IMG/VR virus record: IMGVR_UViG_3300008266_000706
Location: 1 to 23,293 of that record
Direction: 5' to 3' (one strand)
DNA from: a virus
DNA: 23,293 nucleotides
Below are positions 39 through 6,120 of the stretch, piece by piece. The position numbers were made by a program, and so were the translations under genes. Each line of letters begins with the position of its first letter. The stretch's first letter is position 1. The notes beneath the pieces are model-generated. The model was not told where the DNA came from, ran no database searches, and saw only the letters and a program-made list of their open reading frames with translations.

Positions 39-269
39 ATGTATTACATTGATGATTATTCCCTGTATTGCGATCCTTTCAGCGATGAGTATTTCGAATC
101 TCAAACAGAAACGGAATTGCAGGAATTAGGCATTAAATACGAAGTGTATTTAGATGTTTGTTATCAAGCAAACGAGCCTAATGTATTGTCTTGGGAGGAG
201 TTCTTAGCGTATGAACGCTCTCTCAAGGCAAAGGATGATTTCGTTTCAGACGATGATCTTCCGTTCTAG
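39..269 (+). CDS. Small very acidic protein with SSB-like C-terminal tip
   Basis: This is a 76-residue protein that I cannot assign to a family. It is strikingly acidic: about 20 Asp/Glu against 4 Lys/Arg. It has no membrane segment or signal peptide. The last residues are DDFVSDDDLPF, which closely match the acidic C-terminal tip of bacterial single-stranded DNA-binding proteins (DDDIPF in E. coli; a terminal Pro-Phe after acidic residues). That tip is the docking site for many host repair and replication proteins. The rest of the protein is too short and has the wrong pattern for an SSB OB fold, so it is not an SSB. I infer a possible decoy that binds SSB partners, or a DNA mimic. It has its own leader and its own terminator at 278-304, as is typical of small host-interaction genes. 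Function is unproven. Confidence 0.75.
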   Translation: MYYIDDYSLYCDPFSDEYFESQTETELQELGIKYEVYLDVCYQANEPNVLSWEEFLAYERSLKAKDDFVSDDDLPF

Positions 270-277
270 CTTAAGTT

Positions 278-304
278 CAGCCCGTAATGGGCTGTTCTTT
301 TTTT
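278..304 (+). terminator. Rho-independent terminator after the acidic gene
   Basis: A 6-bp perfect stem CAGCCC/GGGCTG closes a 5-nt loop (GTAAT) and is followed by TTCTTTTTTT. It begins nine bases after the stop codon of the upstream gene. Confidence 0.88.
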
Positions 305-333
305 ATTTGCTCCCTGAACTAAAACTTATAGCC
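299..333 (+). promoter_or_regulatory. Leader of second small gene, copy 2 of a repeated leader
   Basis: Directly after the terminator T tract come TTTATTTG, CTCCCTGAACT, AAAAC and TTATAGCC, then ATG. The blocks and order match positions 1-38. TTTATTTG (302-309) is one base off the Bacteroides -7 element TAnnTTTG, but no good TTTG lies at the expected upstream distance, so the promoter reading is uncertain. Confidence 0.45.
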
Positions 334-444
334 ATGAAAGACATGATTTTTATTGTTGTATTATCGTTTTATTCTCTATGTGTAATAACTCCTATTGCTG
401 TAGAGATATATGAGTATATACAAAGAAAACGCTCTCGTAATTGA
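334..444 (+). CDS. 36-residue single-pass membrane protein
   Basis: I choose the ATG at 334 because it sits directly after the repeated leader; an in-frame start further upstream would overlap the preceding gene and its terminator. The product starts MKDMIFIVVLSFYSLCVITP, a hydrophobic helix of about 20 residues. It ends with a short basic tail (YIQRKRSRN), so an N-out/C-in orientation is predicted. The stop codon lies inside the loop and 3' arm of the following terminator. Small phage membrane proteins of this kind often act early against the host envelope or other phages. Nothing here identifies a specific target. Confidence 0.6.
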   Translation: MKDMIFIVVLSFYSLCVITPIAVEIYEYIQRKRSRN

Positions 445-457
445 GAGTTTTTCTTTT
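432..457 (+). terminator. Terminator overlapping the stop codon of the 36-residue gene
   Basis: The stem CTCTC/GAGAG has a 6-nt loop GTAATT, and TTTTTCTTTT follows. The stop codon TGA at 442-444 is inside the hairpin. The loop begins GTAAT as in the terminator at 278-304, which suggests the two cassettes are related. Confidence 0.75.
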
Positions 458-502
458 ATTTGTTTTATGATATAGCTTGTCTCTAATGCGGCTATAGTTA
501 TT

Positions 503-724
503 ATGGAAAATTGCGTATTAGTTGAAGTAAGAAGTTGGAATGTATATAGTGGTGATGAAAATGATTGGGTTTATGGTATATTTTTTTTGTTACAACTCCA
601 AGGCCAATACTCTCAAACAAAAAATTGGCCTAAAGCTTTAACTACAATTTCCTCCATTTCATTTCAGAAATTGATATTTTTATTTGAAAAAGTTTTGGGT
701 CCCCTTCTCTCGGCCTCACGCTGA
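503..724 (+). CDS. Hypothetical small protein, possibly frameshifted
   Basis: The 73-residue frame starts MENCVLVEVRSWNVYSGDEN after a third cassette-like spacer (458-502). I do not recognise it. The first ~30 residues look protein-like. After a run of eight T (578-585) the translation becomes less convincing (rich in Leu, Ser, Ile, ending PLLSASR). It then runs into the GC-rich block. Reading the other forward frame after the T run gives YNSKANTLKQKIGLKL and then a stop near 643, a more natural end. A 7-bp inverted repeat AGGCCAA/TTGGCCT (601-607 and 625-631) lies in this part. The real gene may end earlier through an indel in the T run, or this may be non-coding. Confidence 0.35.
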   Translation: MENCVLVEVRSWNVYSGDENDWVYGIFFLLQLQGQYSQTKNWPKALTTISSISFQKLIFLFEKVLGPLLSASR

Positions 725-1440: not shown

Positions 1441-1812
1441 ATGGAAATTTTTGTAAGTAAAAAAAGCGGTAAAAATGTTAAGGTAAGAAATATCTATCGT
1501 GCTGTATGCAGCGAGATGGATGATGCGTTTATGTGGGCCGCCGTAGATGCAGAAAATTTAGCAAAGGAGTACGACAAAACCTATCCTTATTCTATCAATT
1601 ACTCTATAAAAGATGGATCAATGGAAGGATTTTTCAGTATTACAAAAAGAAGTGTTACGCAAATTAATGTTGTTGTATTTGAGGAAGATGTTGACAAAGA
1701 CATATATGATAATGATGATCTTATCATATATGTTTATAAGGGCAACAAGGTAGCAATGAAAAATTGTCATCCTGCAAATCAAGAAGAATGGAATAATGTT
1801 AATCGTGATTGA
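1441..1812 (+). CDS. Hypothetical protein
   Basis: This is a 123-residue protein that I do not recognise. It has no signal peptide or membrane segment. The middle section (EMDDAFMWAAVDAENLAKEY) looks helical. The second half alternates strand-like pieces (FFSITKRSVTQINVVVFEED, DDLIIYVYKGNKVAMKN), so a small alpha/beta fold is likely. The start is well supported by GGAGG five bases upstream and by the promoter candidate at 1391-1420. It is the only gene between the divergent region and the structured RNA/tRNA segment. The RNA segment begins within a few bases of its stop codon, so the transcript may continue into that RNA and the tRNA. Confidence 0.75.
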   Translation: MEIFVSKKSGKNVKVRNIYRAVCSEMDDAFMWAAVDAENLAKEYDKTYPYSINYSIKDGSMEGFFSITKRSVTQINVVVFEEDVDKDIYDNDDLIIYVYKGNKVAMKNCHPANQEEWNNVNRD

Positions 1813-2012
1813 CTACCGGGAACAGGTCGGGATCTACTAATTATTTAACAGCTTGAAGAAGTGATGTTGTAATTAGTATAAAGCAAGTTACATGCGTAAA
1901 AAGGGTTAAGGAGCAATCCGGCGGTAAAAATTCATCATCAAATGAAATACATTGGCGAGGTCAGAAAATCCAATGCGTTGAAACCCACTGATAGCCTCTG
2001 TAATTTGCTTTT
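1813..2012 (+). ncRNA. Candidate structured non-coding RNA upstream of tRNA-Gln
   Basis: No open frame of useful size exists here, but several complementary segments fit one fold. (1) TACTAATTA (1835-1843) pairs perfectly with 1870-1878; inside it AACA/TGTT and GCTT/AAGT extend the arm to a GAAG loop. (2) A 13-nt segment (1880-1892, AAAGCAAGTTACA) pairs with 1999-2011 with one G-U. (3) Inside that closing helix, GGGTT (1903-1907) pairs with AACCC (1982-1986). (4) A GGA-GCAA-TCC mini-hairpin lies at 1910-1919. (5) TTCAT/ATGAA hairpin (1931-1935 with 1942-1946). (6) CATTGG/CCAATG hairpin (1950-1955 with 1970-1975). Its loop GTCAG (1960-1964) can pair with CTGAT (1988-1992), a possible pseudoknot. 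The closing helix ends six bases before the tRNA. I recognise no known RNA class. Confidence 0.6.
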
Positions 2013-2017
2013 AAAAT

Positions 2018-2089
2018 TGCCCTGTCGTATAATTGGCAGTACAAGTGATTTTGGTTCACTGAATTGAGGTTCGAATCCTTACGGGGCAA
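2018..2089 (+). tRNA. tRNA-Gln (anticodon UUG)
   Basis: A complete cloverleaf of 72 nt. The acceptor TGCCCTG (2018-2024) pairs with CGGGGCA (2082-2088) with one G-U. The D stem GTAT/GTAC follows. The anticodon stem AGTGA/TCACT has loop TTTTGGT, giving anticodon TTG. The variable loop is 4 nt, and the T arm is TGAGG-TTCGAAT-CCTTA. The discriminator is A2089 and the CCA end is not encoded. The anticodon reads CAA, which is common in this window, notably in the Gln-rich end of the portal. It is not an amber suppressor. Confidence 0.95.
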
Positions 2090-2112
2090 CTAACAATTAA
2101 AACTTAAAAACC

Positions 2113-2769
2113 ATGAATGAAGAAAAGAAAATCAGCAAAGTAAAAATGCTTGAAGGTGGTCTCAAAGGATTAGAGATTGAATACCTTACTAGCAAACAAG
2201 TAGAAGGCAGAACTTACCAAGTAGAAAGAAAAGAAAAGAGAAAAGTGCCTGTATCAGGAGAACTATTGAATTGCTTTCATACAATGGATCAGTATTTCAA
2301 AGATATTGCATGTGTTAACAATGGAACAGTTTATGGCCTTAAAGTTACTGCAGGTGGATTTCAGCTTATTGGTGAAGTAGATACAGGCATTAACAATAAA
2401 ACTATTAATTATGCCACTCCATTTATTTCAGAAGGAGATGATTATGCTTCATTTGAAAGTGTATCTAAAGCACTTGATAAGCTAATTGTTGAAGTTGATA
2501 AATACATGAAGGGCGAGAATAAGTATAGTGACAAACAGATTGTTATGCAATTTTATGAAAGAAAAGCACCTGATCAATTGACTGAAATGATGTCTAAGTC
2601 AGATGATGAAATTGCACATGAAGCTATGCGTATTCTAGAAGAAAAAGGTTGTATTGTAATTGCTCCCGAAGCTTTGTATGGTGAGGATATTTTCACTCCT
2701 GCTGTAGAAGAAGTAAAAGAAGTAATAGAAGAAGATAACACTTTTCTTGCTCCACCATCATTTGAATAA
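2113..2769 (+). CDS. Hypothetical protein at head of packaging block
   Basis: This is a 218-residue protein that I cannot assign. Residues 1-50 are rich in Lys/Glu. The middle has strand-like pieces (VYGLKVTAGGFQLIGEVDTG). A helical segment (about 130-175) includes ALDKLIVEVDKYMKG. The C-terminal ~25 residues are acidic and probably disordered (EEVKEVIEEDNTFLAPPSFE). It begins 23 nt after the tRNA behind the leader AATTAAAACTTAAAAACC (2095-2112), which resembles the capsid-gene leader. It is followed after a 14-nt gap by the PD-(D/E)XK nuclease, so it may work with that enzyme in DNA processing; that is inference from position only. Confidence 0.8.
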   Translation: MNEEKKISKVKMLEGGLKGLEIEYLTSKQVEGRTYQVERKEKRKVPVSGELLNCFHTMDQYFKDIACVNNGTVYGLKVTAGGFQLIGEVDTGINNKTINYATPFISEGDDYASFESVSKALDKLIVEVDKYMKGENKYSDKQIVMQFYERKAPDQLTEMMSKSDDEIAHEAMRILEEKGCIVIAPEALYGEDIFTPAVEEVKEVIEEDNTFLAPPSFE

Positions 2770-3500: not shown

Positions 3501-4057
3501 TGAGTTACATATTTACACTTGCTAGTGATGGCAAAGTAATACTTGATAAAAATTGTATGAAGCTTGTTCCTTCGATGAAATATCTATCGGAGGACGAGCT
3601 TTTGTTTGTTATATTGGCTGTAGATTATCATAGTCCTTATAATAAATTTCCAGATGAAGAAAGGTATCGTAAGGCAAAAAATCATGTATATGGAACAATG
3701 CAAATAGAACCATGGGAAGAAGGTCGCATTAAAACTGCCATGAATGATTACATGAGTTTGCAATATGATAGAAGAAGAGAATTAAAAAAAGTATTAGAAA
3801 AAAAGCTTGATTTGCTACAAGGAGCATTATTAATGGAAGAAGTAGCAACTAAGATTACTAATACTTTGACATCAATAAAAGAATTAAGAAAAAATATAGC
3901 AGATTTAGAAAAAGAAATTCTAACAGGAGTAAGTGAATATCAGTCAATATTAGAAGGAAAAGGCAATAGAAGTTTGATTGAGATTATGCAATACAGTAGA
4001 AATGCATTTGAAAACTTACAAAAACCACAGCAACCATGGCAACCACAGGGCCAATAA
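3500..4057 (+). CDS. Coiled-coil protein overlapping terL, possible small terminase
   Basis: A 185-residue protein. Its ATG overlaps the previous stop (TAATG at 3498-3502), and its last 22 bases overlap the start of terL, so all three are translationally coupled. Residues ~1-90 are mixed, and residues ~92-150 form a long Lys/Glu/Leu helix with heptad spacing (LEKKLDLLQGALLMEEVATK, IKELRKNIADLEKEILTGVS), so it probably oligomerises. The Pro/Gln-rich end (QKPQQPWQPQGQ) is dictated in part by the overlapping terL frame. Location and helical nature are compatible with a small terminase subunit, which is usually the gene just upstream of TerL. There is no recognisable helix-turn-helix, so this stays a hypothesis. 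Confidence 0.8.
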   Translation: MSYIFTLASDGKVILDKNCMKLVPSMKYLSEDELLFVILAVDYHSPYNKFPDEERYRKAKNHVYGTMQIEPWEEGRIKTAMNDYMSLQYDRRRELKKVLEKKLDLLQGALLMEEVATKITNTLTSIKELRKNIADLEKEILTGVSEYQSILEGKGNRSLIEIMQYSRNAFENLQKPQQPWQPQGQ

Positions 4058-6120
4058 TATGTCCTAAAAGGCCAATTATAAAGACAAAGCAATTTTGTCC
4101 ACACCCTGTTGCTAAATATGGCATTCCTAGTTATGCTGATGGAAGTATAGATGGAGGCAAGGTAGTAGGAACTGCTGCTTGGCAAAGTTGGTGGGAAGAA
4201 CAATTTTATTATTGCATTCATGGATATAATACAGGAGGGATTTGGATTCCTGGAAGAATGTATTATTACCTTAATTTTTATTACATCACTACCCTATTAA
4301 GGGGATCACATCATCCTGACTATGTTGATTTGGACTTGGAATGGTTCTATACTGTTGAACGTGCAAAGCAAGAGTTTAAAGGTATTATCATGCCAAAGGC
4401 TCGTAGGAAAGGTATATCAGAAAAGACCAATAGTGTGCTATCTCATGGAACTCGGTTTGTGCCAAGGTATAAGGCAGGAGTAGCCGCAGGTAATGAGGAT
4501 TATGTAACTGACTTTATTACCAAATTTGATATTGGTGATTCTATGGTTGCACCTGAATTGCACATGGATAGATTGGTAGATAATAAAGGAGAGATTAAAT
4601 TTGGATGGAACGAAAAAGATGAATATGGTAAGTTTGGAGATAAGGGATCATTAGCACAAATACTATTGAGATGGATGAAAACTGATCCTAACTTATTTAA
4701 AGGTCTTTATCTTAATGATTGCGTATTTGAGGAGTTTGGAGAGTTTGACAAAGGTAAAGAAGCATATTCTGCTACTAAGCAATGTTTCATGGTAGGAGAA
4801 ATGATGGTAGGAACAGCTTTTGTTTATGGAACAGGTAATAGTTCTAAAGCAGGAACAGAACACATGGCTGAAATGTATCTTAACGCAGAAGCTTTTGGAC
4901 TGATTCCTTTTTTTATTCCCGGAACTAGAATGTATTTTCCTTATGTAGGAGGTGCAGTAAATCCTATTACAAAAACTGAATTTAATCAAGATGGAACGCG
5001 ATACGAAAAGATTCCTAATCTCCAAGAATATAAGCCTTATCAAAGGTTTGGCATGGAAGATGAAGAAGCTGCTCAACAGGCTATAGATACATATTTAGCT
5101 GAACTATTTAAAAAGCCTGATAAAACTGACTATTTACGAGAAAAACAAAACGTAGCAACAAAAATTGAGGATGTATTTATTAGAAAGGGTTCTAATAACT
5201 TTCCTCATGAAATTTTAAATGACCAAGGATTTAAAATAAAATCTTTGACTCATAATAAATATAAACATTGGAAACCTGATTGGATTCGCGATAGAATGGG
5301 TCAACCTATTTATCCATTAAAAGTAGATATGGTTCCATTATCTGATGAAGATTTATTAAATCCAGAAGTTGCTCAATCATCTGTAATGATTCTTGATGAT
5401 GGTCACCCTGTAAAAGGATTTCAAAATTTATTTATAGGTGGTATTGATAGTTATGACGTTGATCAATCCTTAACTTCTAAATCATTAGGAGCAATGGTTG
5501 TTTTGCGACAAATGCACATGATTCCAAATGTAGAAAATATGCAACCTGTTGCAATAATACGTTGCAGGCCTAAAACCAAAGAGAAATTTTATGAGTTGTG
5601 TTTGATGGTAGCAGTTTATTATGAATTAATGGGTAATGTGCTTATTGATCATGCTAAACCTCTTATTATTCAATACTTCAAAGAAAATGGAGGCATGTCT
5701 TATTTGGCAAAAAGACCAACTAAATTTGAAAGTGAGTATTCTAAACAAGTGCATGAGTTTGGAGTATCTATTAATGCAACATCTCAGCCTAAAATGATAG
5801 GTTTATTACAAAACTATTTTACTCAACATTGTCATAAAATATGGTTTATATATCTTATTGAAGAATCATTAGGATATGATGAAGGAACATTAAATTCAGA
5901 TGCTGACTGTGTAGATGCTTTAGGTATTGCTTTAATGCAATGTGTTAGTTTGGGATTAATGCCACAAGACAATAATCAATTAATGGTTAATGATCCTTTG
6001 GCTATTACAGAATGGATTGAAGATGCACATGGCAATATGATTCCTGTAATTAAAAATGGAAAGAACGAGGATTATCATGATCCTTTTATGAGATATGTAG
6101 AAACAGGTAGTTTTAAATAA
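4036..6120 (+). CDS. terL: Large terminase subunit (TerL)
   Basis: A 694-residue DNA-packaging motor made of an N-terminal ATPase and a C-terminal RNase H-like nuclease; it docks on the portal, translocates DNA and cuts it. The ATPase signature is atypical: ARRKGISEKT (about 122-131) stands where other terminases have RRxGKS/T. Walker B is LYLNDCVFEE (about 224-233) with the catalytic Glu pair, and GTGNSS (about 265-270) is the coupling motif. In the nuclease, D471 (FIGGIDSYDVD), D538 (NVLIDHAKPL) and D624/D627 (DADCVDALG) match the three acidic metal sites. I use the ATG at 4036, inside the upstream gene. The next gene follows one base after the stop. Length and motifs fit crAss-like TerL proteins. 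Confidence 0.95.
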   Translation: MATTGPIICPKRPIIKTKQFCPHPVAKYGIPSYADGSIDGGKVVGTAAWQSWWEEQFYYCIHGYNTGGIWIPGRMYYYLNFYYITTLLRGSHHPDYVDLDLEWFYTVERAKQEFKGIIMPKARRKGISEKTNSVLSHGTRFVPRYKAGVAAGNEDYVTDFITKFDIGDSMVAPELHMDRLVDNKGEIKFGWNEKDEYGKFGDKGSLAQILLRWMKTDPNLFKGLYLNDCVFEEFGEFDKGKEAYSATKQCFMVGEMMVGTAFVYGTGNSSKAGTEHMAEMYLNAEAFGLIPFFIPGTRMYFPYVGGAVNPITKTEFNQDGTRYEKIPNLQEYKPYQRFGMEDEEAAQQAIDTYLAELFKKPDKTDYLREKQNVATKIEDVFIRKGSNNFPHEILNDQGFKIKSLTHNKYKHWKPDWIRDRMGQPIYPLKVDMVPLSDEDLLNPEVAQSSVMILDDGHPVKGFQNLFIGGIDSYDVDQSLTSKSLGAMVVLRQMHMIPNVENMQPVAIIRCRPKTKEKFYELCLMVAVYYELMGNVLIDHAKPLIIQYFKENGGMSYLAKRPTKFESEYSKQVHEFGVSINATSQPKMIGLLQNYFTQHCHKIWFIYLIEESLGYDEGTLNSDADCVDALGIALMQCVSLGLMPQDNNQLMVNDPLAITEWIEDAHGNMIPVIKNGKNEDYHDPFMRYVETGSFK

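Follow-up and report, generated by a model that had tools for sequence, protein, structure and literature searches.

A 205-nt non-coding gap directly upstream of a tRNA-Gln gene in a 23.3-kb IMG/VR virus record holds an RNA structure that is real but modest and is probably a tRNA-leader domain. In the favored reading, given a rough probability of 0.42, the gap encodes a structured RNA that would double as the 3' end of the message from the upstream gene and as the tRNA's 5' leader, and would cap that message where RNase P cuts. The pairings and their tRNA-anchored position are directly observed, as is the frequent occurrence, in related phages, of similar structures within a few bases of the tRNA 5' end. 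The unusual feature of the gap is the position of its main helix relative to the tRNA, which is more telling than the length of that helix.

Genomic context of the tRNA-Gln leader

The window (the whole stretch of DNA analyzed, 23,293 nucleotides) encodes an exonuclease, a terminase large subunit (terL), a portal protein, and a major head protein, as identified by matches to virus families. Its terL shares ~21-29% identity with phages in public collections, mostly named Crassvirales, and 35-38% with syntenic uncultivated relatives. The features relevant to the gap are the following:

1441 to 1812, plus strand: upstream gene, 123 aa, no assigned function; would carry the gap element as its 3' UTR
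1813 to 2017, plus strand: gap between the upstream gene and tRNA-Gln; candidate structured leader or 3' UTR
1835 to 1878, plus strand: hairpin A, with an extended arm and no U-run
1880 to 1892, plus strand: 5' arm of the 13-bp closing helix (duplex -13.7 kcal/mol)
1978 to 1980, plus strand: TTG, possible -33 element of a Bacteroidota-type promoter
1999 to 2011, plus strand: 3' arm of the closing helix
2001 to 2008, plus strand: TAATTTGC, promoter-like box
2018 to 2090, plus strand: tRNA-Gln, anticodon TTG
2113 to 2769, plus strand: downstream gene, 218 aa, homologue of a ~320-366 aa protein that precedes the exonuclease in relatives
4036 to 6120, plus strand: terL

The gap had been described from the sequence alone as leading into the packaging genes, which is true of the gene order, but terL lies 1.9 kb downstream with three other genes between. 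Elsewhere in the window, clear intrinsic terminators at 276-310 and 428-460 (AGCCCGTAATGGGCT and CTCTCGTAATTGAGAG) are each directly followed by TTTATTTG, a terminator-promoter arrangement that recurs with TATCTTTG in the loci L017 and L020. The segment at 699-800 is GC-rich and rich in C-runs (GACCCCCCCCGTCAAGGCAGCCCCACCCCCCAC), unlike the remaining AT-rich phage sequence, and is possibly a foreign insertion or an assembly artefact.

Predicted fold of the gap

No ORF of at least 60 aa occupies 1813-2017, in line with the gap having been called gene-free, and a hidden small ORF was rejected on the ORF check. The coordinates and pairings of the helices described in the sequence-only reading were exact on recheck, including the 9-bp perfect stem 1835-1843/1870-1878, which a G-U at 1844/1869 lengthens to 10 bp, and the 13-bp closing helix 1880-1892/1999-2011 with one G-U, separated from the tRNA-Gln by six bases (2012-2017). 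The minimum free energy (MFE) of the gap is -48.7 kcal/mol (z = -2.16), a value equalled by 3 of 200 shuffles (p ~0.015), while the antisense strand folds less well and is unremarkable (z -1.12). Helices of at least 13 bp arose anywhere in the gap in 14 of 500 shuffles (2.8%, p ~0.03). The fold is better than most shuffles, but to call the helices far longer than chance was an overstatement, the significance being modest. The gap was also checked as an intrinsic terminator and rejected, as none was found between gene 1441 and tRNA-Gln; hairpin A lacks a U-run and is therefore not a typical one.

Position of the closing helix relative to the tRNA

A helix of at least 13 bp with its 3' end 2-7 nt before the tRNA was present in 0.33% of shuffles (P = 0.0033), with the 2-7 nt range chosen after pseudoknots had been seen in other leaders and not from the window alone. 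The leaders used for comparison belonged to isolated tRNAs (no tRNA within 75 nt upstream) taken from complete genomes of Crassvirales and from a small number of other phage records. By best helix ending 2-7 nt before the tRNA, the window's leader ranked first among the 52 tRNA leaders of the Crassvirales set (p 0.005). The enrichment also extended to the whole set, with nine leaders at p <= 0.05 for a tRNA-anchored helix against 2.6 expected and two in controls ending 60 nt upstream.

Compact pseudoknots in Crassvirales tRNA leaders

On reading 34 leaders, a compact H-type pseudoknot was seen to recur just ahead of the tRNA, separated from it by a few bases. Using a fixed descriptor (score of at least 24), which after tightening fits only tRNA leaders with short loops, pseudoknots 2-7 nt before the tRNA were identified in 9/34 discovery leaders and in 6/17 fresh leaders, some of which are close relatives of the first 34 and not fully independent, compared to rates of 1.3% in dinucleotide shuffles and 3.8% in the sequence downstream of these tRNAs. 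The fresh leaders are the fairer sample because the descriptor was tightened after the first 34 had been seen. About a third of isolated Crassvirales tRNAs carry such a pseudoknot, mostly ending 3-5 nt before the tRNA, with an S1 helix of 4-6 bp, an S2 helix of 5-9 bp, and a last loop that is mostly A-rich.

The pseudoknots precede UAG-suppressor and other tRNAs, including those at L005:5212-5256, L071 before 1501 (cr114), L100:688-731 (cr125), L053 (cr6), L118 (cr56), L101:545-584 (cr4), and L062 (cr53). Upstream of the seven UAG-suppressor leaders (L005, L053, L062, L071, L100, L101, and L118) lies a shared small gene that ends like ...WFKK*. When five of these leaders were compared base pair by base pair, eight of ten pairs varied in a compensatory manner and 50/50 cells held standard pairs, counted on descriptor-placed stems, a placement that favors pairing, because the MAFFT alignment misaligned the stems. 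No Rfam family covers these leader pseudoknots, and a literature search found no paper on them. This class is a more interesting result than the window's own element. In another crAss-like phage, the public record annotates a tmRNA beside tRNA-Met (L103, NC_055903, cr272_1; 193-562, minus strand).

The window leader resembles the compact pseudoknots in lying upstream of a phage tRNA, between a stop codon and the tRNA, with a main helix (the equivalent of S2, 13 bp) that ends a few bases (6 nt) before it. It differs in that the helix closes a span of 132 nt instead of the usual 17-30 nt, the nearest medium-span analogue being a tRNA-Pyl leader (L110; span 59 nt, 9 bp, and 4 nt before the tRNA in the MFE fold), and in having no significant second helix. 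The descriptor scored 0 in the window, where the short-loop S1 was missing, and with S1 relaxed the best pairing was reached by 95% of shuffles. A possible pseudoknot at 1960-1964/1988-1992 had been proposed, and GTCAG and CTGAT do occupy these positions, but as partners they were not significant by the same comparison. The alternative gap pseudoknots TACCG/CGGTA and CCGGG/TCCGG were rejected as no better than chance against shuffles.

Promoter-like box under the 3' arm

The arrangement TTG-N20-TAATTTGC precedes the tRNA-Gln, and its box falls within the 3' arm of the closing helix. Bacteroidota sigma promoters use the boxes TAnnTTTG or TAnnTTGY (PMC7366714, PMC9723704), of which TAnnTTGY has been described in Flavobacterium psychrophilum as an alternative box occupying -12 to -5 (motif SM5; PMC9723704). 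TAATTTGC fits this second form of the -7 box, and the TTG at 1978-1980, 20 nt before it, corresponds to the TTG/TTTG near -33. Since the TAnnTTGY box stands at -12 to -5, the transcription start is predicted at A2013, five bases before the tRNA. The chance of a box 4-14 nt before the tRNA was 0.0135, or 0.00135 with the TTG included, both values referring to a motif recognized only after the sequence had been inspected. In this clade TAnnTTTG occurs at 2.4/kb in intergenic DNA compared to 0.45/kb (5-fold, rising to 13-fold with the upstream TTG), and TGTAATTTGC precedes a gene in the related contig L013 and is absent from 99 kb of coding DNA.

These data make it a tentative but serious possibility that the tRNA has its own promoter in the 3' third of the gap, giving a 5-nt leader, and that the fold is incidental and the rest spacer; the pairing of the 5' arm would then reflect nothing more than an inverted copy of the box within it (TAACTTGC, minus strand). 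Such a promoter leaves the 13-bp perfect partner unexplained, and no box at a tRNA-proximal distance was present before the other 51 tRNAs; one in 52 is the level expected by chance. The inverted copy, at 1883-1890 in the 5' arm, faces leftwards, into hairpin A; it could conceivably act as a divergent antisense promoter, but its -33 TTG is 23 nt away.

The sequence before the tRNA-Gln is like Bacteroidota promoters in that TTG-N20-TAATTTGC stands as far from the tRNA as expected, with a start that is predicted, and differs from them in that the box overlaps a helix arm. The RNA and promoter readings overlap, and evidence from a single sequence cannot separate them. Because the other 51 tRNAs lack the box, a tRNA-anchored helix has a better base rate in the Crassvirales set than a private promoter, which gives a slight lean toward the RNA.

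Both features could in principle be functionless, the gap being a chance structure in an AT-rich spacer. This explanation is unlikely: the helix and the box are independent and each stands at a meaningful distance from the tRNA (p 0.003 and p 0.001), and 205 nt is a considerable length for a spacer in a compact phage genome. It draws on the limited fold z and on the frequency of 13-bp helices anywhere in shuffles, as well as on several features having been tested post hoc and on conservation not having been seen.

Relatives and known RNA classes

Relatives of the window were sought via its terL, 2113, major head, and exonuclease proteins. The contigs of two very near phages, L002 (near-identical to the window, with 100% identity in the overlapping terL) and L008 (71-89% protein identity, including 89% for the head protein and 72% for terL), end short of the gap. 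Exonuclease relatives were identified in eleven loci, most of which share the exonuclease-3500-terL-portal order, and no tRNA was present in the sequence examined at these loci. In those syntenic relatives (~30-40% identical) whose contigs cover the region upstream of the 2113 homologue, there was no gap-like RNA; a small gene stands there, often with a terminator. In one relative an in-frame TAA interrupts terL (L003:2671-2673) while the frame continues with clear homology on both sides, representing a mutation, a sequencing error, or recoding.

In collections from which the window's own record had been left out, no gap homologue was found in the phages, viral contigs, or genome contigs searched, whether by blastn in phages, by exact 18- and 21-mers in IMG/VR, or by a single-sequence covariance model (a weak model) run on 23 sources and on the records from which 24 loci came. 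As the syntenic relatives are without the tRNA and the RNA, both look lineage-specific and a link to packaging is unsupported. The structured RNA, which the sequence-only reading had left unassigned, gave no match to any known class in Rfam, even at E <= 5, and a riboswitch was rejected on this basis.

A packaging RNA as in phi29 had been suggested from the nearness of terL. That the element is a phi29-like pRNA or regulates the packaging operon in cis is scarcely credible: the location upstream of packaging genes and nothing else speaks for it, there was no Rfam pRNA match, the exonuclease-terL-portal order is shared by relatives that lack such an RNA, and the distance to terL is 1.9 kb.

Processing of the tRNA by a ribozyme that cleaves itself or splices, whether group I-like or HDV-like, is very improbable. 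The strings ACCGGGAAC and GCAATCCGG, compared earlier with group I intron P and Q elements, are in place (CCGGG/TCCGG) and the R and S elements are absent as described, but a group I ribozyme is not supported. The Rfam model Intron_gpI gave no covariance-model match at E <= 5, the P7 and P3-P8 core was not recognized, with no R/S strings (P7) on reading the sequence, P5 and P6 are lacking, and a 5-bp P/Q-type pairing was reached by most shuffles. Neither is an exon interrupted, the tRNA being whole and the upstream gene terminating at a stop codon of its own ahead of the gap. In gut phages, HDV-like theta ribozymes are found next to tRNAs and act on the tRNA 3' side (PMC10879173), and the window element shares with them the placement of a structured RNA beside a phage tRNA. 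Because they cut at their own 5' end, these ribozymes serve a tRNA upstream of themselves, whereas the window tRNA lies downstream; a nested double pseudoknot starting from the tRNA 3' end is required, the element is 5' of the tRNA, and no HDV-like Rfam family was matched.

Proposed role of the leader structure

The leader reading is favored because the tRNA-anchored helix is rare in shuffles and the strongest of the 52 in an enriched set, because related leaders carry pseudoknots with compensatory changes, and because the sense strand folds better than the antisense with no intrinsic terminator before the tRNA. It is weakened by the lack of a gap homologue and by syntenic relatives that manage without the tRNA or RNA, by the pseudoknot descriptor score of 0, the coincidence of the 3' arm with the box and the modest fold significance, and by the large span. 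A structured RNA tied to the tRNA leader, as first proposed, remains the leading reading through its anchored position and the analogous leaders, although a promoter fits the same bases.

Under the leader reading, a read-through transcript from a promoter before gene 1441 would extend across the gap into the tRNA, read-through being the norm in the leader set because only one of 52 tRNAs has its own promoter box. Host RNase P cleavage at 2017/2018 would release the tRNA, and the closing helix, six bases before the cut, would form a cap that protects the upstream message, at its newly made 3' end, from 3'-to-5' exonucleases. The same helix would keep the leader beside the cut single-stranded, as RNase P needs.

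In MALAT1/mascRNA, a tRNA-shaped RNA is preceded by an RNase P cleavage site, and structure protects the 3' end that the cut leaves on the upstream RNA. The likeness is in logic only, namely an RNase P cut before a tRNA shape with protection of the upstream 3' end; MALAT1 is a eukaryotic nuclear RNA with a U-A-U triple helix, whereas the window has a plain helix whose protective role is inferred.

UAG-suppressor tRNAs switch these phages to a recoded genome. It is doubtful, but worth considering, that structured tRNA leaders form an undescribed class across the Crassvirales, of which the window element is a large example, and that such leaders control RNase P release and protect the upstream message, including at UAG-suppressor tRNAs. 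The suppressor-tRNA pseudoknots with compensatory changes make the idea of RNase P control testable without a homologue of the window element. If true, leader structures acting at the RNase P step would provide a simple control point for the activation of phage tRNAs, stop-codon suppressors included, and a terminator-free route to mRNA 3' ends.
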